DNA of 63,332 bases, from NCBI GenBank assembly GCA_002087915.1, contig LWDP01000034.1, positions 1 through 63,332 on the forward strand. The letters run 5' to 3'. Below, in pieces: positions 515 to 30,782 of this stretch (within the stretch, counting starts at the first letter, position 1; each line of letters starts with the position of its first letter). Source of the DNA: Enterospora canceri. Taxonomy: Eukaryota; Microsporidia; Enterocytozoonidae. A model generated the notes under the pieces. The model made no database searches and had not been told where the DNA came from. It worked only from the letters and a program-made list of their open reading frames with translations. Made by a program: the position numbers and the translations under genes.

Positions 515-2001
515 TTATTCATCCGTTGTGTACGTGATCTCGTTTTCTATTGTGCTTATGCAGCAGCACAATCCTATAATCCTATACCACATACTTGTGA
601 ATATTCCTGGCTCATCATATGACTTAGATGACACTGTTGATTGCTGTGATGTCTCAGCAGAGTCCTGAACAGACACCTTATCAGATACATTATCAATCAC
701 CTTATTAGATTCCTTGTCAACCTCCTTGGGCGGAGAGAGGCGAACAACTTCCTGTGGTGATATTGGAGTTGATTTCAGGACGGAGGCACGAATTGGTTTA
801 TGTACCGTAGGCTGGGCTGGGCCTTGTACAACCACCCGTTCTGGTCTCTCCATAGAAATCTGAATTGCTTCCCGAATTTTCTTCTGAAAAGATTCATAAC
901 TAGCCAACAATGCCTTTGTCTCAGTAAAGATCTCTGATGCTGTCCTTTTGTGCTCCTTGGCAGCTGGATGTGGAATGGGACGGCGATAGATCGGAAGAGG
1001 ATGCTCAATTGGCTCTGGATCCAACAATTTTTGCATTGATGAGCCACTTTCGTTCTTTTCACTCTTTACCCTCACATCAACCACTTCACTTACTTGNTAG
1101 GCTGGGCTGGGCCTTGTACAACCACCCGTTCTGGTCTCTCCATAGAAATCTGAATTGCTTCCCGAATTTTCTTCTGAAAAGATTCATAACTAGCCAACAA
1201 TGCCTTTGTCTCAGTAAAGATCTCTGATGCTGTCCTTTTGTGCTCCTTGGCAGCTGGATGTGGAATGGGACGGCGATAGATCGGAAGAGGATGCTCAATT
1301 GGCTCTGGATCCAACAATTTTTGCATTGATGAGCCACTTTCGTTCTTTTCACTCTTTACCCTCACATCAACTACTTCACTTACTTGCTTAATATCGGACT
1401 TTTTCTTTTCGGCTGACATCAGCTTATTCAATGCCTTGTTTGTCTCTTCATTGATACGCGCCATCTCCTCTTTGCTCAAATCAAGAGCTGGAATTGTAAT
1501 GGTCTTATTTCCATTCAAGAATACATGAGGTGAATCCTCAAGTTTCGCATTTTGGCCATCCCAGGAGCACATGAACACTACAGGGTTCTTCTTGTTCTTC
1601 TTTTCTTCCTTCTTTGCCTGTTTGATTGCACGTGCTGCTTCTTTAGCTTCCTTAGCCTTCATTTTCTTTCTCAGCTTTCTTTCTAGCTTCTTATCAGAGA
1701 CTGGATCCTTTAGGCTGTCATCCAGAAGAATCACCTTATTGTCATTGGAGTTAGTCTTTGGTTCCTGTGTATCTGGGCTCTTCTTGTCAACTTCTTTATC
1801 AGGGCCTGTTCGATCACCAGGCGGGGCCTTTGGGTCGATCTCGCTGTTCCCATCTGCAGCTGGGACTTCGCTCGACTGGGGCCACAAGGCTGCCAGTAGT
1901 TGCACAACCGCAATTGTTATGGTGTACGCGTGGCATAGCAAGAGCGCTTCGACCAGGAGCGTAGACAAATTCCACAGAAAAGCAGTCAACAACATGAACA
2001 T
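515..2001 (-). CDS. Lineage-specific secreted or membrane protein, charged, interrupted by an assembly duplication
   Basis: The N-terminus MFMLLTAFLWNLSTLL is hydrophobic and looks like a signal peptide or anchor; ATG at 2001 or 1995 could start it. A long Lys/Glu-rich middle follows (likely coiled coil, with a KKMKAKEAKEAARAIKQAKK-like stretch around residues 115-140). The C-terminus has a short hydrophobic segment with three adjacent cysteines (RIIGLCCCIS), perhaps a palmitoylated membrane contact. The frame breaks at the n at 1097; removing one copy of the 289-bp duplicate plus the n restores one frame of about 398 residues. No recognisable domain. No CCC lies directly before the start, unlike most genes here. 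Function unknown. Confidence 0.6.
808..1386. repeat. Assembly duplication 1: two copies joined by a single n at 1097
   Basis: Bases 808-1096 recur as 1098-1386 (shift 290) with a single n between. I see one difference, C at 1082 versus T at 1372. A single n between near-identical copies is the mark of overlapping contig ends that were not merged. The mismatch could be an allelic variant. The shift is not a multiple of 3, so it breaks the gene at 515-2001. Confidence 0.9.
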
Positions 2002-2422
2002 ATAAAACAAAACAAACTTGTTTTAAACGGATCAAACAACCTGAGACAGATGACGTCATCTGGGACTGCAATTGGTGCAATTGTTGCTCTGTTTGATGAC
2101 GTAATAAGCAAGATACCAAAATATTATGTAATTTGTTTTGGATTTTTTTATTACTGGATATTCTACTATAATTGTGTTGGTAGTCTGAAATAGATCAGTT
2201 TGATCAGAAATGGATCAGATTTAGGCTTGTGTGGGTTGTTATGAAAATATACACTCTTACAAATCTTATTACAGCTAGGTTTTCCACTATGGACAAAAAC
2301 CTAAGAAAACTTTACAACTCACGCGACAAATAAGATAATGGCATTTGAGATGTATGGTGGCTCTGCAGCAGTTATCACACTAACACTTGATTCTAAAAAC
2401 ACATTCTTGAAATGCAATAAGG

Positions 2423-3400
2423 CAGGGGTGGCCAAACGTGACCAAATTGTCTATATTTTTTCTTAGGCATTTCTAGTAGGAAAAGCGCCATATGAAGCAT
2501 TTTAATCCCTGTATCACGATATTTTTTGCCATACTTTTGAACCTTACGATAATACTGTACAAAACGAAAACCTTATTTTTATCCCTAATTTTAGGCTTGA
2601 AAACAAGAAGAGTATGATTACGTTCCAAGGTGATTTTGCCACTCAATAATTCTAATGAGAACTAATTTTATTGAAAAGAACACGTGAAAACACGATCACA
2701 ACAATGATTTATGTCTTAATTGCATTTGAAAGCAATAACATGCGCGTGATCGAGAAATAGTGAAAATGATAAAGATGTGGAATCTGATGATAAGAGAGTG
2801 CCAGAGGAGGACATGGAAGTAACGCTTTAGAGATCTCTGATAATATTAACGCCTGCAATAGAAGGTGTTATTGCTGTTTCACTTTGATTTCATAGGAACC
2901 GAACAGATGGCAAAACGAACAGAACAACATGAAATAGCAGGTTGTATTTCTTGTCTGTATCAAATAAGTGAGCATACCATGCGCTTGTCTCCAAAAAATG
3001 TTATTGGGAACAAAATATGGCTATTTAGCTTATTCACTAGAATTAGAAAATATTGAAAATAAAAACAACAGCTTTATTAGAACGGGCGCAAGACGATGAA
3101 TATCATAAAACAGAGTGTTTGAAGACAAATAGAGGCAAGTTTGCTGCATTTATGATGTTTTGGGCGGAAATAAACAAACAATAACCTGGTGATTTCAGGT
3201 AATTTGACTATCTTTGATTCAAGTGCCTAAAAATCGATAAAATTCAGATAATTAGAGGAGATTTAACTATGAAGAATAAACATAAGCATAGAATGGTTGA
3301 AGTGAGATCAGCAAGAAGAATGATGGCTGAGGATAGCGATTGATAAAGATGAACAGAATTTTGGCTGTTTTCTAAGATGGCGATAAACCTCAAAATAAAT
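2423..3400. mobile_element. Decayed copy of the hAT-like element (left end kept, right end lost)
   Basis: Starts with CAGGGGTGGCCAAACGTG, the same left terminus as the element at 28979. It stays alignable with that copy, with many substitutions and small indels, through matching landmarks (GAAGCATTTTAATCCCTGTA, then AAACAGAGTGTTTGAAGAC, then TTTTCTAAGAT), until about 3400. The hairpin and right inverted terminus of the other copy are missing. No 8-bp flanking duplication can be shown because the right end is absent. A short frame at 2865-3056 inside it is not convincing as a gene. It sits at the edge of the gene-free AT-rich zone. Confidence 0.75.
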
Positions 3401-3442
3401 ATGGAATTTTGTGTCCGCTTGTTAATATTGCTGTTATAGCGT

Positions 3443-3632
3443 TGTCCACAAACTCTTGCAACAAGAATTTAAATCATTTTTGGAAATTAGTCCCTATCTG
3501 TTCAACCATCAAACCATTTGAGTTCAAATAAAAAGAAGCAGTAAAGAGCAACGTAAAAAGTGTATCCTATAGCATAATAGCCGTAAAAACGGTATACCAA
3601 GAAGTTTATGGCTGTCCACAAACTTTTGCAAC
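3443..3632 (+). repeat. 20-bp direct repeat, copies 170 bp apart
   Basis: TGTCCACAAACTCTTGCAAC (3443-3462) recurs at 3613-3632 with one difference. Both lie just beyond the point where the decayed hAT-like copy loses similarity to the complete copy. The words resemble terminal sequence of DNA transposons, but no partner end or target duplication is visible, so this is only a repeat. Confidence 0.6.
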
Positions 3633-3649
3633 GGAGCATATTTATATAT

Positions 3650-6600
3650 TCTTTATTATTAAGAAAATATGCTAGAAACAATTAATATGTGTTGTCAAAT
3701 TAAATATGTTTTACAAAACATTTCAATGTTCAACTCCTCAATAGTGAATAAGCAAACATTATAACAACCATGATCTTATTTGATGTATATGTCGTGATAA
3801 ATGCCGCCATATATAATTTAAAAAATATCTTACTAAAATATTAGTACGTAAATTGTTATATTGTGAGATAATCACCCAATTCAAATGTGCATAGTTTATT
3901 AAAAATAGTTGATATCATTATGGCTTTTTATTATATTCTAGAATGTCGATTGAATAAAAGCATGTCATTATATTATTGTTAGAAATATACCTAACAATAT
4001 ATTACAAATAATTATTTCATAAATTCCGTCTTCTCACGTAGTTTGACTAGAAATTATCGTAATAATATAAATATTTAAAGATATAAATTTAATTAGAATT
4101 TAGCACACAAGGAATGTTGTCAATAACAACAATAAAACATGCATATAAACAATAAAAACGATTTGTTTATAAAAACCCATATTACATCAATTGATTTATA
4201 ATGGCAAATGTTCAAATATGATTTCAGATTTAAACACAAATTACTACTTTGCTTATATAAAGTATTCATAAAGGGAAGATGTAACCAAATATAAACAATG
4301 TTGAATTATACCATTACTTTACAAAAAGGATTTCTTATACAGCATAACTGTTTAAACAAAAAACTAACAGAATATCATTGATTTTAACAAAGAACATCAA
4401 AAGGTTTAATACCACTGTAAAAATTGATTGTATACTAACATTAATTAATTGTTCTTCTAGAAGTATGAAGAGACCTAAACAAAAAAAAGATAACAGAAAG
4501 AGATGCGCAGATTTATATAAATAATGCGTGTATAGATTAATTTTTTATACAATAAAAAGAAAAGACAAACTCAAAAATGTAATAATTAAATGTCTAAATT
4601 TCACATATCAATGTTCAATATGATTATAAAATATTTGCATTTTAATCTTAAAATATATAGTATGCATGTTATACAATATATTAACTCTATGAAATAAATA
4701 TATATAAATTCATAGAATGTATTCAAAAAGATATATGTTTATGTAAAACACTTCGTATTGTTATATAGTTTCATCGTGTTTTATACACGCAATATATATG
4801 ATATAGCTAAAATAAAGCGTTATATCAATATAGAGATGTGTTATAATTTATTTGTTAAATAATTGTTTAAATAACTACATATATAATTTATGGGGCTATG
4901 ATAAATGATATTGTGTATTTAACGATGTCATATAAGCAAAACAATTGTTACCTTAAAATCACTATTTTAATGGTTTGATTGCTTGAATCAACAATGCTAG
5001 TTACTAAACATTTAGTTAATGATAATCACAATTTTGTACTTTTGAATCTTATATATCATTTTGTTCTTCTCAACACTTAACCCTTTCATATATACAATAT
5101 TTTAATGAAATTATAGAATCAAATAATAATTATTTAAAACATAACACTAGTTCAAAACATAACAAAATATGTTAAACTGTATTTGGTGAAAAATAGACAC
5201 TTACTTACACATAAATTTTTATAAATGACCCAATTTTCTTATTCAAAAAATAATCAATCATATTTACATATAAGATGCGAAAAACAAACTGTATTTATAA
5301 TTTAAGAGGTTTTTTGCATAACAAAGTTAACATTAGATTAGAAAATACACAACGATATAATATAATTGTTACCATAGGGCTTTATTGATTAATGATTCAG
5401 AAATAACTTTACATATGTAATAATGCTGAATTATTGGTTTTGAATGTTTTTATCAAAGAGATGAGTACAAAGACATTATTGTATGTAATTTAATAAAAAC
5501 TATCTCAGATGCCATCATTTTGATTATTCGTCTTGAGGCATTTCAACGTGGAAAGGACAAATGGTTTATAAGTAAATAATGTTTGTCAACACTACCAATT
5601 CTGCATAAATCAAGTCAGATAACCTAAAAGGAACATAGTCAGTGTAGAAAACCTGAGTATTAAAGTTTTGGGCATAGCAATTTTGTCTGAAATATTGGAG
5701 CATTGTCTTGTAAGGTATCATTATGATCAATAAAAGTATTATATCTAAGTAACTTGTCTTGTATCGAATCTCTTTATCTCTGCAATGAAGAGCCTTTTTA
5801 TTCTTAATTGAACGGTCAAGCAAAGATTAAGAAATTCTTACAGGTTCTTGAAAAGGCTTATTCAGAATATTATCGCATCTCAACTAATTAGTATATTTTA
5901 TAATTTTTATTTTGAACTTTTAGGAACTTTTTGCAACAAACTATCTACAACTAAAATTTTATATATGTTATAAGCATTTTATAAAACTAAAATTTGTAAT
6001 TGCTAATGTTCTATGTATTTGCTTTTACTATTTGTATTAATTTTTATTGAAGCATTGTTACTCTTAGGATTATATTAACCACTAGGAGTTTAATATTTTA
6101 CTCGAATAATTACAATATAACATTCTTCATAATTTTTTTAATACCACAGATCTTAAAATAAAAACGTATAATTTTCAAAAATGGTATATACACATTCTAA
6201 CTGTATATAAAGCACTTTTAAGTAACGATTATTTATTTAAACTTTATTTAACTCTAATAGATATTTTAAAACATCATTTGATTATAAATTTTAGTTAATA
6301 GATTTTTGTATTTTGAGGCATATCACAACACAATATACCCAAAATTACATTAAACATTTAATTCTCTTAGTAGGTTATAGAGAACAAAACGTTAATGTAA
6401 AAGGTTAAAATGCGAATGTTCTTATTATTTAAAATAGTAATTATATGATTATCAAACGTTGAAATAAATCTTCATGCATATTATACAATTTTTTATTTAT
6501 GTTTCATATATGTATTTTAAATCACCACGTTTACATTTTTGGATATCAAATCTGATTTAAAAATATTTTAAATCTTGATCAAAGTGAAAACCTTTTTGGT

Positions 6601-9600
6601 TCTTATCATATTATATAAGAGTATGAAAAGTTGCTTGTGCTCTTTAAAATGTGAGTTGAATTAGAAAGGATTGTTTTAAATGATAAACAACCTCACAAAC
6701 AATAGAGAATATGAGTATGAAAGTGAACACACTGGTAATGCTTTTTCCTTATCATACTATTTACAAGTATGGACTAGATCACATTATATTTTAAAATACT
6801 GGAGTATAAAATTATATAACATCCTGGATTTTTTTAACATTTACAAATAAATATCTATTTATTTGATCCATTAAACATTCTAAAATGCATAAAGTTTAGA
6901 ACTTAATAAATTTTGTGTATAGTTAATATAAGACAAATTTAATATAACACGGTTATCTGGTGCTTTAGTATTATGTGTTTAAATTGAATTTTGGTGTTAT
7001 TTAGTTGATTCGCTGTAATGTTCTTATTTGTAATAAATGTTTTGTTTTAAATAAGTTGTTTTCATTTGTATTTGATTGAAATTTATACAAATGTTGTCCT
7101 TGGTTACCAATACTTTCTTTATATTGCACTTAGCAAATTATTTATAAATTATTTAGCTTTAAAAAGCATTTGATCTGCTGTTTTATTAAGCAAATGGTAT
7201 TTAACTCGGCTACCCTATATTATTGAGTTATAATATCTTAACTCATTAAATTATCAAGTTAAATAAGAGGTGTCAAATAGTTACATTCATTAATTTAATG
7301 TACTTTGAAATAGAAACAACTAAGGTTATTTTGTTATATACACTTGCTTTATAGACAAGAACTAAAATGTTTTTATTATAGATGTTAAAAACTAAGAGCA
7401 TACTTGTGTATTTTCAAGTACCACAATTAAAATATTTATTTCTTCAATAAAAACTAAACAATCAATACGATGAAAAGTGTCGTTGTAAGTAAAAGTAAAT
7501 TCATCCGTTAAAATCAGAGGTGGTTACTGATCTTCAGCTAGCAAGTTACTTTTAAAACACCAAACTAAATAATGTATCAACTAAACATGCAAATCTTTTG
7601 TTTGTTTATAAATGTTTAAATATACAATATTTTGAAAGGTGTCACAATGGATAAAAAAACTTGTTACAATATCGATTTAGTTTGCAACCTAGTAAAATCC
7701 CGCTGATAACAAGACCAAACTATTCTTCTCTCTATTAGGTTCGTGTACAAAAACCATATAATTTGCCTAAACTACTTTCATTATCAACATATAGAATCCA
7801 CCAATTTAACTAAATCTACAACTTAAACTTTTATGTCTGTATGCTTTATGCGATTTGATTTCTTTTTATTAATGTTAAATTTATTATTATATATTTATTT
7901 AAGTTGCTTTGAAGATATATTTAAAAGAACGTTCTATATATTGTATGTGGTTGGCTATCCCTGTATGCTTATTATTTAGATGTGTTCTGTGCAACGATTT
8001 TTTGAGTAATTTAACATGGTCTTTTACTCTCTGCATCTTAAAAATGGGTAAGTTTTTAGGGAAATAAAATCCTTTTCGTTAGTAGTGAACCTAACACACA
8101 TATTACAACTATTTGTATGGAGATTAATTAAAACTGTTTTTGATGCATTTGTAAAGAATTGCATTTTGCATTATACCATTGTTATTATCAAAAATTTAAA
8201 TATGAAATCCATTATAGACATCGTTTTTCAAGAATATACGCAGACAAGATCTTACACGAAATTAATTTTGTCAAAACCATTATTATAATAAACTATGAAT
8301 ACTATTATCATAAAATACAGTCGGGTTATAATTTTCAATATCAATAGGTTTCTATTTGCAAATTAAATTTGACTATTAGCATTTATGACTATAGTGAAAA
8401 ATTCCATCCAAAATCATATTCAAAACAACTTGTGATTAATATTATTGTAATTATATAAATTATAAACTTTAGTGTAACTTGGAGACTGTTTTCTGAAAGT
8501 TTTTAATTATAAAATTGTTATCCGTTACAAGGTATCTTTAAAATTATACAACATTTTTCTAGTTACCTTACATATATAGCGAATACTATGTTGTGTTCTT
8601 ATATGAACACATAGGCTTTAAACCAAAAATATTTTAGTTTTCTTTCTTTAACTATTATGTACTCTTTTACATATAAACTGCATGTTTATATTATTATTTT
8701 AATATAGCATAGCAAATATTTAGTACACAATTTCTGATGATTATATTAAAAAAACAATATAATCATCATATAAACAATGATAAAATTGGAAGAAAATTTA
8801 TAAAAAATTATATGTGTTTGTAACTCTTAAATACAGAAATATAAACGATTTTAGATGATTTGTATGGTGTAACATAGTTATTATCATCATGTTTTAACAT
8901 CCAGTAATGTGCTGTTATTAAGATATACATTTGTTTTGCTATGATTCAAAGCATTTATTATTGAACAAATTATTAAGTAAGTATGGTTTAAACCATTTAA
9001 GGTTAATGTAAATTTCTATTTCTATTTCATTTAAATAACAAAAATATACATAGGCAGAAAAAATTAACAATGTATTTGAAATTAATTTTGTAAACATATT
9101 TATTCAGTTTAGGTCTAACCAAAAAAATCAAGTTGACTAAATATACAAAAGTTGAATAGATCTGATTCAACTTAAACACTAAAAACAAATTTTTTGATTC
9201 ATTTATTCTTTATAAGTGGTGTTCTCACTTTAATGAAAGTATGAATTTGATAAATATTATCTTATACCTTAAGAACATATCATAAAATTTCATGATAAGA
9301 GTTTTAATGTCTCATATCTGCTTTTGGGTAAGAATGTCTAAAAACATCCGTAAATTAGCTATGCTTGATCAGATTTGGTATATTACTTCATGACAATCTG
9401 TTTCACCTGTTTTTTATCCACTTAACCAAACACGGTATATAATGCAAATATTTCCATAACGGTTTTCTCAAACCCTAACAATCTAATATCATTACTGGGT
9501 TAGATGTAACACACACAGTTATATCAACACATTCCACAACCATCTTCCTTCCAATAACATACGTATCTTCTATTTTTGTTGTTCTTACTCATTCTTCTAA
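3650..9600. other. Gene-free, extremely AT-rich region
   Basis: About 6 kb is dominated by A and T (roughly four fifths by eye), with frequent stops in all frames. The longest frames (5566-5823 minus, 8085-8347 plus) are short, AT-biased and have no CCC start signal or recognisable domain. No tRNA, rRNA or tandem array was seen. The contrast with the surrounding gene density is sharp. It may be a centromere-like or decaying region; nothing here decides between these. Confidence 0.75.
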
Positions 9601-9671
9601 ATCAGGGTTATGTTATTTTATGCACAGTGTTTATTTACTATTGCTTTAAATAAATTCAAAATAAACAACCC

Positions 9672-10852: not shown

Positions 10853-11953
10853 TTATCCACAGAAGTCTCCTAAAATGCATCCAAAGTATCTTCTAAACCA
10901 CGACCTATTTTCTGGCTGTGGTACTCTCTGAGATCTATCCAAAACATTCTCTGATATTATGTTACCATCTGATGAAGTAATTACTATTTTCCTAGTCTTA
11001 TTCTCCACTGCCCATGTTTTGATATGAGTCTCTTTTGATTGTTCAACTATTTCATTCTCACCTGACATTCTTTCTGATCCAACATATGAAGATGACTCTG
11101 TATTTTGATCAATGGATTTGTTGCACCTATTCAAATCCATTGATTCCTTCACTGTTTCTGGTTTATCACCTGATACATCCCCCTTTGTATCATGTGAATC
11201 CATAACAGCCGTATTATTAATATTAAATACTTTGTCAAATTCAGTTGCCGAATATGAATTGGATTCGTGTTCTGAGACACATTTCAATTCAACTTGTTCA
11301 GGTTCCATTACATCTTCAACAGTGATTGTTTCACAGCTTTCATTGGATTTGCTACTGTCGCCCATTACAGTAACATTCTTAACAGCCGTTACGATTTCAC
11401 TAATTCCGCTACCATCAGAAATAGCAAATTGAATACTGCTACTACCGGATTCAAGAGTATCACTCTCCTTATCACTATTCTCTGCAGCTATCTCTTCTGC
11501 CAAATCACTAATATCAGTTGTTCCAAAACTATCAGAAACACCAAGGTTAATACTCAGTTGAGAATCACCAGACTCACTAACAGTACTCTCATTCATACTG
11601 CTACTAATGAGATCATTACATACATCACTGACTACCTCTCTATAGTCAGCTGATGTCAGGTGTGACTGATCTGTATCATCCCCCTGTAATTCTACTTTCA
11701 TCTCAGACTCAGTGGGTTCAATCCCAGGGGATGAACTTTTTATCCCTCCTTCTTCTGACTCATGCGCAGTAAACTCTGCATTGATACCGCTAAAGAACTC
11801 GATTAATCGTCCTACACGTCCTTTCTCACACAGACTCGGGTCATCCAAGTGCACCTCAACACTGTCACGTTCCAAACTCTCCTCACTCCTGGAATGCTCT
11901 ACCGTCTTCTTGTTCTGACTCGATGAGCTCGCTGGAATGTAACTGAAACACAT
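10853..11953 (-). CDS. Hypothetical acidic Ser-rich protein, 366 aa
   Basis: ATG follows CCCC directly (TACCCCATG), the strong local start signal. The protein is rich in Ser, Glu and Asp and low in complexity over most of its length, so it is probably disordered. Only the C-terminus is different: basic and aromatic (WFRRYFGCILGDFCG), with two cysteines that could be lipid-modified or membrane-associated. No catalytic motif, signal peptide or TM segment is seen. It is a good candidate for a lineage-specific protein; its role is unknown. It is convergent with the gene ending at 10710, 142 bp away. Confidence 0.65.
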   Translation of the reverse strand: MCFSYIPASSSSQNKKTVEHSRSEESLERDSVEVHLDDPSLCEKGRVGRLIEFFSGINAEFTAHESEEGGIKSSSPGIEPTESEMKVELQGDDTDQSHLTSADYREVVSDVCNDLISSSMNESTVSESGDSQLSINLGVSDSFGTTDISDLAEEIAAENSDKESDTLESGSSSIQFAISDGSGISEIVTAVKNVTVMGDSSKSNESCETITVEDVMEPEQVELKCVSEHESNSYSATEFDKVFNINNTAVMDSHDTKGDVSGDKPETVKESMDLNRCNKSIDQNTESSSYVGSERMSGENEIVEQSKETHIKTWAVENKTRKIVITSSDGNIISENVLDRSQRVPQPENRSWFRRYFGCILGDFCG

Positions 11954-23762: not shown

Positions 23763-26700
23763 CTACGTGTATTCTACCTCTAATTGCTCATCCATTACGT
23801 ACGCCCTGATATTCTGCCTATAAAATGCACTGAATGCATCCACGTCCATTCCAATATCAACGAATATTGCGCCCATCAGTGCCTCGAAGGTGTCACCGTA
23901 CGCCTTCTCTGACATCTGGGCCGTTCTGGTTGCCAATTTGTCAATTCCAAGTCTCTTGGTGATGTTTCCGAGACTGATATTGTTTACGTACGACTTCTTG
24001 TGGGAGTGGAGATCAATGGGTCTCCTGCATTCTGCCTTGAAGTAGCACATTTCAACCACCATCAGGTCCATCACTGAGTCACCGATGAGTTCGAGGAAGT
24101 TGAAGAAGGTCGATCCAAAGAGGCCGTTTGAGTTGCCAGAGTGGACGAGGACCTTTTCAAGGAGACCAGGGTTCGAGAAAGTGTAGTGGAACAGATCAGC
24201 AATTCGGGTGGACTGGTGATCAGTGAGGAGGCCGTGGTACGGGAAGAGGAGGAGATCGCTCTTGAACATGTTCAGGAGGTCGATGTTGATTTGTGTTCCA
24301 TCAAAGAGGCCAATTTGAAGCAGAAATGAGAGGATGCCTTGTAGGACATCCTGGTACAAATTGGTTGATTTGACGTGGAGGATGGGACTGAAAATGGGTG
24401 GATTCTGCCTGAGATTGGATCCACTTCTCTGCAGGAAGATGGCGCCTATGACCGATTCAATGACGTCAGCGTGCATTTTGTTGATCTCACTTTCGTCCTG
24501 GATGAAGAGGCCGTCGTTCAGGATGACGCGGGTGTTGAAGTTGTTGGTGACTCCAAAATAGGCCATGTATTCCTGTGACTGTTGATGGGTCTCATTTTTA
24601 TCAAGAAATGGCGCCTGAAACTCCTTCTTGGATCGATGGAGCTGGATGTAGCGGTGGATGTTGGATTCAACACATTTCTGGCTCAGAAAGGCGTTGGTGA
24701 TGGTGGAGTCCTTGAACTCAATGCACTGTTTGAAGAGGTGTTTGGAGTCAATCTCATTTTTGGGGCTGATTTGGATCTTATTCAGGAGAGTGAAGCATGT
24801 GAGCAGGAACTTGAGGACGCAGTCGCCAAGGAACTCAAGGCACTCGTAGTTTGCATCGGGCTCGCTGCTCTTGGTCAGAGCACGGAGCATGAGGGACGTG
24901 TCGTCAATTCGGACATATTTGTCCATGAAGTCTTCAACCAGGTAGACAGACTGCAGGAAGTGGAAGTTGGGGACAAAGTGGCACATTTCAGCAACAATCT
25001 CCCTGCTGATTGGCGTAATGACGACCATTTCCTTGGGAAGGAGTCTGTGGCCTGATACTCCGAAATTTGTTTGTTGATTGCTTCCATTATGCTTAATTAG
25101 GCTACTGAGTTTTGTTCCAAGAAAGAGGTGTCTTCCACGCTTGTTCATCAGTTTCACACTGAGATATCGCTGGAAGTAGTCACAGAATGTCTCCTCTTCC
25201 GATACAATCTTCGACAGGTTTCTCACGTAGTCCCTGTGGAACTCACCTGAAATTTTGGATTCTAGGCAAATATCGATTTCACTGTGCCAAACCAGAAATG
25301 TCTTCGTCTTCACGTTCCAGAGCAGATTCGTCTTCACAAACTCCTCTACGCCGTCCTCCAAACACTCTGAACCTGCCAACTGGCCATCTGGCTCCTCATT
25401 CGTGAAGAGGCCGTTTATTGTGTTTGTTACACTATCATCCTTATTTATGCTTACTGTTCTATTTGATTCTGTTACTAAACTGATTTCATCCAATCCACTC
25501 TTATTATCATCAACAGTATCATCTACTTCCTTGTAGAGTGAATCCAACATGAAGTTGTCAAATATCTGATTCACGTACTCGAAATCAACCTGATTATCTT
25601 TGATTGGAACTGCGTAGTAGTGGAACTTCTTCACGCCTTCTTCAAGGGCTGTTTGAGATGTTCCAATATCCTTAAAAAAGATGTATTGGAAGATAGTGAG
25701 TAAGTGCACTTGATCTGGATCTAGTTTGATGCTATTTGAGAGTGAAACTACGCTATTGCTTCCATTGCTACACTCTCCTTCAAAGAATCCATTCGTCAAT
25801 ATCCCAACCTGACTGTTTTTGAATGCGTAAAGCGTGTATTCCTCTGTTTTGCTACAGAATGATTCAAACATGCTGTTGAATAGTGTCGTATACTGCTGTT
25901 CTTCTGCCTTTGCCCGTGTAACCATATCCCTTCTTGACCACAACTCGTCTACGTTGATTTGCTGCTTCTTCTCAAACTGTTTAAGACTCTTTTTTCTTAG
26001 TCCTTCGTAACTGAATCGAAGGAATCCTTTTTCCTCAAGCATCTTTTCCTTGAATCCTTCAATTGCTTCGTCTATGAATTTCGTCTTGATTCGTTGGATT
26101 TGTAGGTGGTCACACGTCTTATATTGCAGTTGAAGCAGAATGTCGATCTTCTCAAAGAGTGTCTCGTTGTATTCAGTGAGAAGGAATTCAACATTTTCAG
26201 CAGATTCAAGTGGGATCTTCTTGTGCGTAGCGTAGAGTTCAGCAAGTTGCGGTTGCATGTGCTGGTTTACAATCCTGTTTTCGTAGAAGAATTGCAGTAT
26301 TTCAACAGCTGTCTGGTTTACACAGTCTTTCTTCTTGATGTGATGCTTTGACTCAAATCGCTTATCGAAGATGGATCCAACTGAGATTCGGCAGAAGTAG
26401 AAGTCAGATGCATTGAGAGGCTGGCCGTAGTAGGTGCCAGTGGTTCTGAACTCCTCCAAGTATTCAATTTGTTGGACATGAAATTCCAAGTTTCCCAGGT
26501 TCAATTTGAGTCCCTGAAGCACCTTCGTCAAAAGACCCTTGGAATAATTCATTGGGAAGAATGCACTTCCAATTCGCACTGTTTCGATTGTATCAAAATC
26601 ACATTTCAGTTGCTGTATTTTGTCTGTGATCTGCACAAACTCACCAACTACAACATCCTGGTCACTTGTCTCATCCTCAATCTGCTCTTCCAGCTGATTC

Positions 26701-27620
26701 TGAATCTCCTCTACCACCTGATCATTGCATTCCAGAAATATTGGTTTCGTGTAGTCACTGTCTTCCAGGTATCTCTTGATTTGTCGTATTAGATCAGGTC
26801 TGTTTTCCAGGAACTCGATCATCGTGTCACTTGCTACTTCACTCGTCTTGATTGAGAGCCCTTCTATTTTCAGAAGCCTGTCTTCGATATTACAGTCTTC
26901 GTCGAAGAGATAGACCTTCTGAAACTCATTCAAATCCACATTTTCGTCGTAATCCACCACAAAACACGCGTATTCATCCTTCTTCTTCACATTTCTGAAG
27001 TTGGCTACGCCCAATGCCCTGGCAAATTCAGGCGTATTCGCCAAAATGCACGTTTTCGCTTTTCCGGTGGTTTCAAGCATCTTTTTGATGAATTTGTACT
27101 TCTTACTGTTGAAATAGAGCATCAATTTGTACTTATAATAGAACGAGTTGTACGTTGGAATGACGTCATCGCTGAGTACCAGCTCTTCGTTGACTATTCT
27201 CTTCACTCGCTTCCTTTTTCCAGTCAGGCCAAATGAAACCCGTTCAATTGGCTCATATTTTATACTCGAATTCATGTATTTTTCAACCTCGCTCATATCA
27301 CCACGTGTAAGACAAACTAAGACCGTTTGAACACTCTCATTCTGTTCAAATGCTTCACTGACGTATATCAGCATCCTATCGTGCATCTCTGGATATTGAT
27401 TTATGCAGAATAGAACATCTTCTCCCATTCTCAATAAATTGAACACAATTTTCTTGTACTCATCCAACTTGAGCATCCCGGTGTACGTCTGATGGACGAA
27501 TCTGTGCACGTCGATGTAATCTACAGGCACCTTAACCGCACTGATGACCACCACATCCTCTTCATTCGTCAGCCTGTCATTTTTGTGAATGAAGCTCTCT
27601 GGAACTTTTATTATTTTCAT
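23763..27620 (-). CDS. DCL1: Dicer-like ribonuclease III
   Basis: Dicer cuts long double-stranded RNA to small RNAs for silencing. Two RNase III domains lie at the C-terminus: IIIa has CLEFLGDCVLKFLL (about residue 920) and later DVIESVIGAIFL; IIIb has FLELIGDSVMDLMV (about residue 1175) and later TFEALMGAIFVD. The acidic metal-binding residues are present in both. At about residues 415-450, ESKHHIKKKDCVNQTAVEIL resembles the Dicer dimerisation domain (DUF283). The first 400 residues lie where the helicase belongs, but I see no GKT P-loop or DExH box, so helicase activity is probably lost. No PAZ domain could be recognised. I chose ATG 27620 because CCC lies 1 nt before it; ATG 27635 is in frame upstream without such a signal. 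Length about 1,285 residues. Confidence 0.88.
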   Translation of the reverse strand: MKIIKVPESFIHKNDRLTNEEDVVVISAVKVPVDYIDVHRFVHQTYTGMLKLDEYKKIVFNLLRMGEDVLFCINQYPEMHDRMLIYVSEAFEQNESVQTVLVCLTRGDMSEVEKYMNSSIKYEPIERVSFGLTGKRKRVKRIVNEELVLSDDVIPTYNSFYYKYKLMLYFNSKKYKFIKKMLETTGKAKTCILANTPEFARALGVANFRNVKKKDEYACFVVDYDENVDLNEFQKVYLFDEDCNIEDRLLKIEGLSIKTSEVASDTMIEFLENRPDLIRQIKRYLEDSDYTKPIFLECNDQVVEEIQNQLEEQIEDETSDQDVVVGEFVQITDKIQQLKCDFDTIETVRIGSAFFPMNYSKGLLTKVLQGLKLNLGNLEFHVQQIEYLEEFRTTGTYYGQPLNASDFYFCRISVGSIFDKRFESKHHIKKKDCVNQTAVEILQFFYENRIVNQHMQPQLAELYATHKKIPLESAENVEFLLTEYNETLFEKIDILLQLQYKTCDHLQIQRIKTKFIDEAIEGFKEKMLEEKGFLRFSYEGLRKKSLKQFEKKQQINVDELWSRRDMVTRAKAEEQQYTTLFNSMFESFCSKTEEYTLYAFKNSQVGILTNGFFEGECSNGSNSVVSLSNSIKLDPDQVHLLTIFQYIFFKDIGTSQTALEEGVKKFHYYAVPIKDNQVDFEYVNQIFDNFMLDSLYKEVDDTVDDNKSGLDEISLVTESNRTVSINKDDSVTNTINGLFTNEEPDGQLAGSECLEDGVEEFVKTNLLWNVKTKTFLVWHSEIDICLESKISGEFHRDYVRNLSKIVSEEETFCDYFQRYLSVKLMNKRGRHLFLGTKLSSLIKHNGSNQQTNFGVSGHRLLPKEMVVITPISREIVAEMCHFVPNFHFLQSVYLVEDFMDKYVRIDDTSLMLRALTKSSEPDANYECLEFLGDCVLKFLLTCFTLLNKIQISPKNEIDSKHLFKQCIEFKDSTITNAFLSQKCVESNIHRYIQLHRSKKEFQAPFLDKNETHQQSQEYMAYFGVTNNFNTRVILNDGLFIQDESEINKMHADVIESVIGAIFLQRSGSNLRQNPPIFSPILHVKSTNLYQDVLQGILSFLLQIGLFDGTQINIDLLNMFKSDLLLFPYHGLLTDHQSTRIADLFHYTFSNPGLLEKVLVHSGNSNGLFGSTFFNFLELIGDSVMDLMVVEMCYFKAECRRPIDLHSHKKSYVNNISLGNITKRLGIDKLATRTAQMSEKAYGDTFEALMGAIFVDIGMDVDAFSAFYRQNIRAYVMDEQLEVEYT

Positions 27621-27705
27621 AGGGCCGTTCTTCATATGAAAAATATAACATATCTGAAGTGCTCAGATACGTTTAACGTATCACATCAGCTAATAGTGCA
27701 CCAAT

Positions 27706-28575
27706 ATGATCAAAATGAATCAAATCGTATTGAAAGGAAGTGCAATTTTAGATGCCCAGGGCAGAATGCCAGATATTCAGGAGCTAGCAGAGTATTTGAA
27801 GCAGAATAGGCTACTAGAAGGTAAGATAGAACACAGTGACCGTATTTTCAGAATATTCTGGCACATTGCTGGTGGAGAGTATGAAACAATAAGCAAAGCT
27901 GAACACGTGTACAAGGAAATAAAGAAAAAAAGAAGCAAATTGGAGACACAGCCCAATAGAATCCCAAAATACCTGATTGAAGGGAGCACAATGAAGATTA
28001 TTCAGTCAAATAAGGAAAGAAGGAAGTTCTACAGGTTAATGAAGAGAGTGGAGCGACCTGTCAGAATAGAAGAGAAAGAGTGCTACTCCACGAGTAATAC
28101 GTGTCGTATTGGGCAGATTGTGAATAACACGCGTCATTCGATGATACAGCGAATTTCAGACAGAAAGAGCGTAATAAAACTAAGAAAAAGGTGCGTAGAC
28201 AGCTTTGACTATTTTGGAAATGGGAAGCTGTTTAGTACGAAGAGGCTGAAGACGAGAGGCGTAGAATGCGATACCAGTGCCCAGTCGATCTGCGTATTCT
28301 ACGATTCACAACCTGAAAATGACACAAGGAAGGAGCAGAAGTTTGTGCTGGAGACACCAGATGCAAGCAGTGACTGCGACTGTACCAGATACACGAAACG
28401 AAACGCAAATCGAACCAGAAACATCTCCATCATCCCCAAAACATTAACAAATAGATTGGCCCGTTTTCAAAAGGGAAGCAGGGTTGATTCATGGAGACAG
28501 TTCCACGCCTTAATAAACATATTTCATAATCAGGCTGTATCAGTCCACTCGTACATGCACGATGTGCAAATGTAG
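27706..28575 (+). CDS. Hypothetical basic protein, 289 aa
   Basis: Uninterrupted frame with many Lys, Arg and Asn. The start at 27706 (or ATG 27715) has no CCC run nearby. No signal peptide, membrane segment or catalytic motif can be seen; a Cys pair with acidic neighbours (SSDCDCTR) lies near residue 225. It starts 85 bp from the Dicer start on the opposite strand, so the two probably share a promoter region. Its last 46 bp overlap the 3' end of RPB9. Function unknown; probably nuclear given the charge, but that is a guess. Confidence 0.55.
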   Translation: MIKMNQIVLKGSAILDAQGRMPDIQELAEYLKQNRLLEGKIEHSDRIFRIFWHIAGGEYETISKAEHVYKEIKKKRSKLETQPNRIPKYLIEGSTMKIIQSNKERRKFYRLMKRVERPVRIEEKECYSTSNTCRIGQIVNNTRHSMIQRISDRKSVIKLRKRCVDSFDYFGNGKLFSTKRLKTRGVECDTSAQSICVFYDSQPENDTRKEQKFVLETPDASSDCDCTRYTKRNANRTRNISIIPKTLTNRLARFQKGSRVDSWRQFHALINIFHNQAVSVHSYMHDVQM

Positions 28576-28853
28576 TGGGCGTCGAGTGCCTTTACGTCAC
28601 TCTTGCGCATGTAGCAGACACACTTGTTGTTCTCGCACTTTTCGCATATTTTATTCAGCGTAGGCAGCGTTACGTCATTTAGAAAGTACTGCATATTTTT
28701 GCTCTCACCTCTGTCCTCCTTGACGCGTTTAAATACCTCGTTTGTGCCCATATCTACGCTAGTGCCACACTTGGTGCATGCTAGGACGTACTTGCTGTTC
28801 TCATACTTTGGATATAGAATATTGTTGCACTCGTGACAGAATTGTATTGGCAT
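28530..28853 (-). CDS. RPB9: RNA polymerase II subunit RPB9
   Basis: RPB9 is a small zinc-ribbon subunit at the Pol II jaw, involved in start-site choice, fidelity and proofreading with TFIIS. The N-terminal ribbon has CHECNNILYPK and then CTKCGTSVD (family CRDCNNMLYP). The linker DVTLPTLNKICEKCENNKC matches the family DPTLPR-x-CPKC. The C-terminal ribbon ends HYICTSCMYEW (family FFVCLSCSHIF). At 107 residues it is slightly short. CCC lies 5 nt before ATG. Its 3' end overlaps the convergent gene at 27706-28575 by 46 bp. Confidence 0.93.
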   Translation of the reverse strand: MPIQFCHECNNILYPKYENSKYVLACTKCGTSVDMGTNEVFKRVKEDRGESKNMQYFLNDVTLPTLNKICEKCENNKCVCYMRKSDVKALDAHYICTSCMYEWTDTA

Positions 28854-29964
28854 AAAATGGGTATAAAAAGATGAAAATAAGAAGTTGAGTAGGTGGCACT
28901 AATTTGAGTAGATTGGTGTTTGTAGTAGCCTATTAGTCTCTATGGTGTCTTATAGGCACCATAATATATCATTTAGAGCAGGGGTGGCCAAACGTGGCCA
29001 ATTTGGCCAATTTTCCTATACTTTTTTTCTTAGGCATTACTAGTGGGAAAAGCGGCATATGAAGCATTTTAATCCCTGTATCACACAAAATTTTACCATA
29101 CGTTTGAACCTTACGACAACCCTGTACAAAACAAAAACCTTATTTTTTATCCCTACTTTTAGGCTTGAAAATAGGAAAAATAAGATTACGCTTCATTGTG
29201 ATTTTACCACTCAATAAATGCAATGAGAAGTAGTTTATTGAAAAAGAGCTTATGAAGACACGAACAAAACAACGATTCGTGTTTTAGACGCGTCTAGATT
29301 ACATGCATGAGATCGAAATAGCGAAAATGTTACAGATTTAAAATCTGAAGACAAGAGAGTGCTAGAGGAGGACATGAAAATAACGCTTTAGAAATCTCTG
29401 ATGATATTAATGCCCACAATAGAGGGCGTTATTGGTGTTTCAATTTGATTTTATAAGAACCAAACGGATGTCAAAACGAACAGAATAACACGAAATAACA
29501 GGTTGTACTTCTTGTCTGTATCAAATAAGTGAGCATATCATACGTTTGTCTCTAAAAAAGATATTATTGGCAACAAAATATGGTTATCAAGCTTATTTAC
29601 CACAATTAGAAAGTATTGAAAGTAAAAACAACAGCTATGTTAGAGAGCACAAAGACAATGAATATCTTAAAACAGAGTGTTTGAAGACAAATAAAGGCAA
29701 GTTTGTTGCATTTCTAATATTTTGGGCGAAAATAGACAAACAATAACATGGTGATTTCAGGGTAATTTGACTATCTCTGAATCAAGTGCCTAAAAATCGA
29801 TGAAATTCAGATAATTAGAGGAGATTGAACTAAGAAGAATAAACATAAGCACAGAATGGTTGAAGTGAGATCAATAAAGGGATTTATGTTTGGGAGATAG
29901 TGATTAATAAAGATGAACAGATTTTCGATTATTTTCTAAGATAGCAATTAACCTGATAAAGATG

Positions 29965-29993
29965 ATCACGACGTTTCGAAGAAACGTTGTGAT
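29965..29993. repeat. Short palindrome inside the hAT-type element
   Basis: Arms of 13 bases around a GAA loop, ATCACGACGTTTC and GAAACGTTGTGAT, pair with one G-T type mismatch. It is absent from the decayed copy, which ends before this point. Confidence 0.7.
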
Positions 29994-30008
29994 TCCTTGC
30001 GCGGAGCG

Positions 30009-30073
30009 GCAATTTTTTGAGTTGGCTCGAAGCAGGCTAGCGAAGCTGGCCGCGAGCCAACTCAAAAAATTGC
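30009..30073. repeat. Perfect 21-bp inverted repeat (hairpin) near the transposon right end
   Basis: Bases 30009-30029 (starting GCAATTTTTTGAG) are the exact inverse of 30053-30073, with a 23-base spacer. GC content is well above the surrounding element. It could be a subterminal transposase-binding region or a separate insertion. Confidence 0.85.
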
Positions 30074-30167
30074 GGAAAATTTGGCCAACGGAGCACAAAC
30101 TTTTGGCCACCCCTGATTTAGAGACATTCAATTTAAACAGGTAAAATTCTTACAAATTTTTATCCCA

Positions 30168-30782
30168 ATGTCATTTGCACAGATTATGAGAGAAATCCAC
30201 AGGAAGAAGCAGTCTGATGTCATGAAGTACATGACAAGAATAACACTGGTTGAGGCACGACAGAACGATGTGGTGCATCGTAAAGAGAAACCAGCATTTT
30301 TGGAGAGAGCAAGGAAGCTGGGCTACAAAGCCAAGAACGGATACACAATTTGGTCTGTTCGAATCAGAAAGGGAGACGCAATCAGAAACTACAACAACGG
30401 TAACACACGTGGAAAGTGTGTGAATGCTGGAATACACCAAATCAAGCCAGGTCAAAACAAGCAGGCTGAGGCTGAGCAAATTGTAGGACACAAACTCGGT
30501 GGACTACGCCTGCTGAACAGCTACGAGGTGGGCCAGGATCTGCGATACCACCACTTTGAGGTCATCATGGTCGATCCAAGCCACAATTCAATCAGAAATG
30601 ATCACAAGATCAATTGGATATGCAATGCTGTTCACAAGCATAGGGAAATGCGTGGACTTACGTCAGCAGGGCAGAAGTCAAGGGGACTGGGCCACGGCTA
30701 CAAGTTCAACAACACCAAGGGCGGATCCAGAAGGGCTGCCTGGAGAAACAGGAACACTCTTTCTCTGAAAAGATACAGGTGA
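30168..30782 (+). CDS. RPL15: Large ribosomal subunit protein eL15
   Basis: eL15 is a basic core protein of the 60S subunit. The 204-residue frame is the standard length and carries family segments: [14 protein letters not shown], [26 protein letters not shown] sequence at about residues 45-65, [22 protein letters not shown] sequence near 140, and [16 protein letters not shown] near 165. CCC lies 1 nt before ATG. No intron at the start, although ribosomal protein genes are where microsporidian introns usually occur. It lies 52 bp beyond the hAT-type element, so the insertion sits just upstream of its promoter. Confidence 0.96.

Follow-up and report, generated by a model that had tools for sequence, protein, structure and literature searches.

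A probable non-autonomous hAT transposon with Buster-like target choice between RPB9 and RPL15 in a microsporidian genome

Structure and position of the element

Here, we describe a complete element of 1,137 bp located between RPB9 and RPL15 in a 63,332-bp stretch of microsporidian DNA (the window, which is contig C30 of a 2,242,678-bp assembly of 75 contigs). Most probably (about 0.86), it represents a hAT DNA transposon of the non-autonomous kind, with target choice of the Buster type, that was moved in trans. The assignment to hAT is made from the ends, the length of the duplication and the target pattern, since the genome yielded no transposase between such ends. The features of the interval are as follows.

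28530..28853, minus strand: RPB9, 107 aa (PF02150, E 1.3e-7)
28971..28978, unstranded: left target-site duplication (TSD) ATTTAGAG (sequence scan)
28979..30115, plus strand: putative non-autonomous hAT-type element, 1,137 bp, without a detected coding frame (sequence)
28979..28992, plus strand: 5' terminal inverted repeat (TIR) CAGGGGTGGCCAAA (sequence)
30102..30115, minus strand: 3' TIR, exact inverted copy of CAGGGGTGGCCAAA (sequence)
30116..30123, unstranded: right TSD ATTTAGAG (sequence scan)
30168..30782, plus strand: RPL15 (eL15), 204 aa (PF00827, E 4e-74)

The TIR is perfect at 14 of 14 positions and can be extended imperfectly to about 42 bp. The distance from the element to the start of RPL15 (30168) is 52 bp, and to that of RPB9 (28853, minus strand) 125 bp. 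The initial annotation had placed a complete element of this length, with these TIRs and 8-bp flanks, between the two genes and 52 bp ahead of RPL15; the coordinates proved exact, the structure was confirmed, and both genes are confirmed by Pfam. The eL15 protein is 82% identical to those of Ecytonucleospora hepatopenaei (Enterocytozoonidae) and Nucleospora cyclopteri and 81-86% identical to five further proteins (all at E <=1e-60), and its best matches among solved structures are 7qep, 6zu5 and 6rm3, which we take to be microsporidian ribosomes.

When the whole window was scanned for inverted repeats spanning 100-6000 bp with identical flanking 8-mers, the element was the sole match at TIR lengths of 10, 12 and 14 bp, and one additional match appeared at 8 bp, versus a shuffle mean of 0.13. 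Thirty dinucleotide shuffles of the window yielded no such structure at 10 bp, which rules out a chance origin of the TIRs and TSD. A transposase hidden within the element could also be ruled out, since none of the listed ORFs of at least 100 aa overlaps it, all six frames contain many stops, and the variable sites of the family carry no signal of codon phase (75/63/83). Likewise, the protein of another hAT family of this genome, hAT-2 (see below), gave no match on C30 when used as a query. The non-autonomous hAT type without a transposase, as originally proposed, is borne out by the structure, the absence of an ORF and the copies elsewhere.

The TIR of hAT elements typically starts with CAG, and CAGGGGTGGCCAAA is short and starts in this way; the 8-bp TSD of hAT elements is perfect both here (ATTTAGAG) and in a copy on C13 (CACTAGGG). 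With 1,137 bp, a 14-bp TIR and an 8-bp TSD, the element also falls within the limits given for MITEs in PMC4405373 (<1500 bp, TIR 5-60 bp, TSD 2-20 bp).

The family and its target sites

A genome search with the window element returned at least 26 matching pieces, self included. Exact CAGGGGTGGCCAAA occurs at seven sites genome-wide and the reversed control at none; one of the seven, on C75, seems to have been duplicated by the assembly on the two sides of an N, so six sites are independent. The initial annotation had called for a search for these termini and had named a lack of other copies as evidence against it; the termini recur, and further copies exist. The main pieces of the family show 71-91% BLAST identity to the window element, and two 38-bp 3' ends are 100% identical. 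The family counts are lower bounds, because no more than 12 first-look candidates were scored; the family is low-copy in the 2.24-Mb genome.

Pairing of ends in the window and 16 loci (17 sources), with no more than four mismatches allowed in the ends and one in the flanks, gave exactly two complete elements, namely the window copy and the C13 copy, which has 1,030 bp, CACTAGGG on both sides and ends that differ from each other at 3 of 14 bases. As for the others, the C75 copy runs off its contig at the 5' end, C12 has a 5' end, the C29 copy is split up by other repeats, the C37 copy is diverged, and C47 carries a diverged 3' end. An additional copy and an empty site lie in the window itself.

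2285..2292, plus strand: paralogous empty site CACTATGG, counterpart of the C13 insertion site CACTAGGG
2423..3390, plus strand: second copy, W2423, with a complete 5' end next to the flank CAATAAGG and no 3' end, 83% BLAST identity

This second copy is followed, from about 3381, by part of a different repeat that looks Tc1-like by eye, and the region 2120-9671 of the window is repeat-bearing, with few genes and no listed ORF of at least 100 aa.

The C13 flanks with the element removed align to window 2166-2421 with a score of 140, the highest score among 200 single-base shuffles being 60. At the position where the second window copy (2423) begins, an element is lacking on C13. Consequently, the single CACTATGG in the window and the empty counterpart of 2423 on C13 point to two independent insertions into paralogous DNA. 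The flanks of the C29 copy are both readable and unlike (GACTAGAA vs. TAATACAT), so this copy shows no duplication. A viral-contig search with eL15 for the RPB9-RPL15 interval of a relative gave one distant locus, 31% identical and unusable.

Several candidates were rejected as further copies. The old relic on C36, C52, C66 and C8 is borne by a segmental duplication: the four loci also have the sequence around the relic in common, and apparently go back to a single old insertion that was duplicated rather than to independent ones. The second 3' end on C75 was judged an assembly artefact, since the sequence repeats exactly on either side of a single N, and C29 was discarded as a full-length autonomous copy, because five other repeats, all found again elsewhere in the genome, account for its extra length. 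One of these five (in C29:10176-13547, L027) is about 1.46 kb long with inverted ends CTCCGTTGCAAAAGTTTGTGGACAGCC, which by eye we take to be Tc1-like. The relic also lies upstream of three copies of a gene family of unknown function (366 aa), on C52, C66 and C8, within segmental duplications about 94-96% identical; the window copy of this gene (10853-11953, minus strand) has no relic. Apparent assembly joins, in which exact or near-exact repeats flank a single N, were seen at window 808-1386 (N at 1097), at C75 711-1710 and at about 1345 of L063. In addition, the same 280-bp repeat end lies 16-20 bp from the starts of C2, C8, C41 and C60, so repeats limit the assembly.

Strings within two mismatches of the TIR number 26 genome-wide, versus three for the reversed control. 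Eleven belong to the family by alignment (the seven exact ones and those on C12, C29:13534, C37 and C47), by eye, those on C64 and C14 resemble coding sequence, and those on C31, C6:27248, C53 and C8:2967 could not be paired with a second end and a duplication within the examined stretch; the rest comprise five instances of the recurring CAGGGGTGGCCCAG, three of CTGGGATGGCCAAA and one string at C34:15012. Among the five longest copies, the K2P distance is 0.104-0.181 (10 pairs) and the gap-free pairwise identity 84.2-90.4%, with BLAST identities to the window copy of 83-88%. Only one of the 10 pairs reaches 90%, and the MITE family criterion in PMC4405373 is at least three members at 90% similarity.

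Nine flanking octamers of the family could be read.

Window element: ATTTAGAG, seen on both sides
C13: CACTAGGG, seen on both sides
Second window copy (2423): CAATAAGG, one-sided
C12: GATTAGAC, one-sided
C75: TGTTAGAT, one-sided
C29, two ends: GACTAGAA and TAATACAT, one-sided each
C37: ATATAGAT, one-sided
C47: TGTTGGAT, one-sided

The pattern nTnnnnAn, which is linked to the Ac group of hAT and had been put forward for this insertion, is found in two of the nine flanks; it does not describe the family, although ATTTAGAG fits. By comparison, TA occupies octamer positions 4-5 (nnnTAnnn) in eight of the nine, seven of the nine octamers being one-sided (binomial P 1.3e-9 at the window TA frequency of 0.059), and the exception is the most diverged flank, that of C47. 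The pattern was seen in the flanks first and compared afterwards with the published Buster target consensus, which is also nnnTAnnn (PMC3517528). On target choice, eight of the nine flanks would thus conform to the Buster group of hAT.

RPL15 promoter and 3' hairpin region

According to PMC2803860, the start of microsporidian genes is immediately preceded by a CCC-like motif; in ribosomal genes, an AAATTT-like signal lies upstream of this motif. Both are found ahead of RPL15.

30154..30166, plus strand: promoter signals of RPL15, namely AAATTT (30154-30159) and CCC (30164-30166), motifs as in PMC2803860

These signals begin 30 bp past the right duplication, and RPB9 likewise retains its CCC. 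Among 29 gene starts picked from the 70 listed ORFs of the window, CCC or GGG occurs within the last 15 bp in 22, versus 2 of 29 at -50 to -36. The insertion leaves the known promoter signals in place and is therefore likely to have little effect on RPL15. The suggestion that it had altered this promoter is thus unsupported, AAATTT (30154) and CCC (30164) being intact beyond the insertion. The insertion appears to spare the known signals, and effects through other upstream elements are possible.

The 3' part of the element contains two subterminal palindromes.

29964..29994, plus strand: subterminal palindrome 1, folding into a stem of 14 pairs; shared with C13 and C75
30009..30073, plus strand: subterminal palindrome 2, which forms a long hairpin; shared with C75 and lacking at the 3' ends of C13, C29, C37 and C47

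The fold of window 29930-30115 has -79.9 kcal/mol, compared with a shuffle mean of -46.4 (z -8.4). In the last 190 bp the window and C75 copies differ at 3 positions, where about 20 would be expected from the core rate of 99/945 (P 1.5e-6, for a stretch picked after looking). The ends may have been kept by selection for mobility, and the core may have drifted before these insertions. The long hairpin is present in two of the six readable 3' ends (window and C75); since C13 has a perfect duplication without it, movement probably did not require the hairpin, unless C13 lost it later.

Two Rfam matches, mir-49 and STnc350, are both far below their gathering scores and were taken as chance. In the same window, a 1,290-aa protein (23763-27635, minus strand) has two RNase III stretches and only RNase III Pfam families at E <=0.01, and we read it as Dicer-like. 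A Piwi protein was found on C57 by the same kind of profile search as used for the hAT Pfam models, and the two proteins together make an RNAi pathway likely. A 3' hairpin transcribed from the RPB9-RPL15 region could then feed the Dicer-like enzyme of the same contig, a proposal to which we give hardly any credence; if it were true, the element would supply its own silencing RNA and be tolerated beside an essential gene.

Source of the transposase and significance

Searches of the genome with PF05699, PF14291 and PF14372 gave no match, but the controls were silent too, so absence is not shown by them. PF04937 (DUF659), which we take to be a domain of hAT transposases, gave two matches below the cut-off, on C56 and C55. 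The hAT-2 element on C55 (C55:3482-5484, L064 948-2950) has 2,003 bp, the TIR TAGGGCAACCC, an 8-bp duplication ATATACAC that fits both nnnTAnnn and nTnnnnAn, and a DUF659-related frame of 458 codons with one in-frame TAG. Its C-terminal part matches PF05699 weakly (E 0.13) and contains STSVEVERSFSM, by eye what we regard as a hAT-like motif. The C56 copy (C56:12622-13809), directly behind a reading frame, has one TGA at a position other than that of the C55 stop, and a piece on C51 (C51:1-1244), cut by the contig start, holds the C-terminal 265 codons with no stop. Further copies or fragments are found on C54, C34, C75, C7 and C24, several at contig ends, and among the other matches the six longest have 94-99% identity. 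Comparison of the frame with the PDB gave eight matches, none credible (best E 0.027). Its protein relatives at E <=1e-5 number 22, at most 28% identical, and the six that are named are all from arthropods.

In the genome, the hAT-2 protein has 18 matches on seven contigs (C1, C7, C35, C51, C55, C56 and C75), mostly relics or fragments, including diverged hAT transposase-like loci at C1:1735-6144, C35:5809-6859 and C7:27604-27849 that are 25-55% identical to hAT-2. Judging from these sequences, hAT transposases have been present in the genome. Among the seven contigs, only C75 bears an end of the window family (<=2 mismatches), about 46 kb from its hAT-2 fragment; C34, with a hAT-2 fragment, has one near-TIR string with two mismatches. 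No transposase was found between CAGGGGTGGCCAAA-type ends in the assembly, which may lack part of the genome, the ends of the C1, C35 and C7 loci lying outside the coverage. The expectation that a hAT transposase exists elsewhere in the genome thus holds for homologues, none of which was found with matching ends.

The insertion would have arisen by cut and paste. A hAT transposase from another element, acting in trans, would bind the CAGGGGTGGCCAAA ends, the element would be cut out of its donor site and joined to a target cut with an 8-bp stagger around a central TA (ATTTAGAG) in the RPB9-RPL15 interval, and gap repair would yield the 8-bp duplication.

Could the young hAT-2 family (C55 and others) have mobilised the element despite its different ends? 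It is a hAT family of the same genome with an 8-bp duplication, its close copies indicate that a hAT transposase was recently present, and the C51 piece has no stop. However, hAT-2 differs from the window element in its transposase frame and its ends; TAGGGCAACCC and the outer 60 bp of the window element give alignments of only 5-8 bases. The two families also differ in divergence, which is much less in hAT-2 than in the five copies of the window family (K2P 0.10-0.18), and we consider such mobilisation very improbable. The mover might instead belong to another superfamily with 8-bp duplications (Merlin or P type), the element merely resembling hAT, since such duplications occur in both hAT-like and Merlin-like microsporidian MITEs (PMC4405373), and the searches here gave no cognate transposase. 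The same source gives TIRs of 24-34 bp for Merlin-like and 5-18 bp for hAT-like MITEs, and the perfect TIR here has 14 bp. Moreover, the TA-centred target matches Buster, and the genome contains homologues of hAT transposases, as found by searches that covered hAT, not Merlin or P. A Merlin or P origin is accordingly rated very improbable.

A different kind of explanation is that the insertion was kept for its effect on RPL15 or RPB9 expression, as an upstream element, an insulator or a source of hairpins. Its closeness to the RPL15 start and the conserved 190 bp facing this gene, part of which folds strongly, would agree with this; but the same 3' block occurs in C75, elsewhere in the genome, so that a need of the family itself explains the conservation, and the CCC motif is retained in both genes. 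Selection for expression is, in our estimation, highly improbable, and a non-autonomous hAT transposon with Buster-type target choice is preferred.

hAT MITEs are already known in microsporidia: Nosema bombycis has 8 families with 309 elements and N. antheraeae one family with 8 elements (PMC4405373), and the present family is an added member of this ordinary type. The hAT share of the N. bombycis genome is given as 6.45% (PMC3614468), and diverged hAT-like sequences are described in Trachipleistophora hominis and N. ceranae (PMC3486916). Like the Nosema Nbh families of PMC4405373, the element is microsporidian and non-autonomous, with an 8-bp TSD and a TIR within 5-18 bp, and some of the Nosema insertions are also near genes. 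In contrast to Nbh4, with its 112 intact copies and identical groups in that report, copies here are few and none near-identical, the TIR letters lying outside this comparison. In addition, an autonomous hAT with a TIR similar to that of Nbh4 is reported in N. bombycis (PMC4405373), whereas the present searches revealed no autonomous element that shares the ends of the window family. The closest likeness in target choice that we compared is Mar, a Buster-type hAT MITE of Drosophila without coding capacity, which shares the nnnTAnnn target and whose TIR, CAG(G/A)GGTAGGC, resembles CAGGGGTGGCCAAA (PMC3517528), a likeness from the ends with internal sequence outside the comparison. Unlike the window element, Mar is an insect element of 610 bp with 11-bp TIRs and 74 TIR-bearing copies (PMC3517528). 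Among the open-licence papers listed by our searches, we found no report of Buster-type elements in microsporidia.

The element and its copies would represent one more hAT family, Buster-like in target choice, in a microsporidian in or near the Enterocytozoonidae, and, given the several hAT transposase homologues in the genome, cross-mobilisation is testable. The insertion also provides a clean marker beside an essential gene, and a case in which the known promoter signals of a ribosomal gene survive a transposon 30 bp away.
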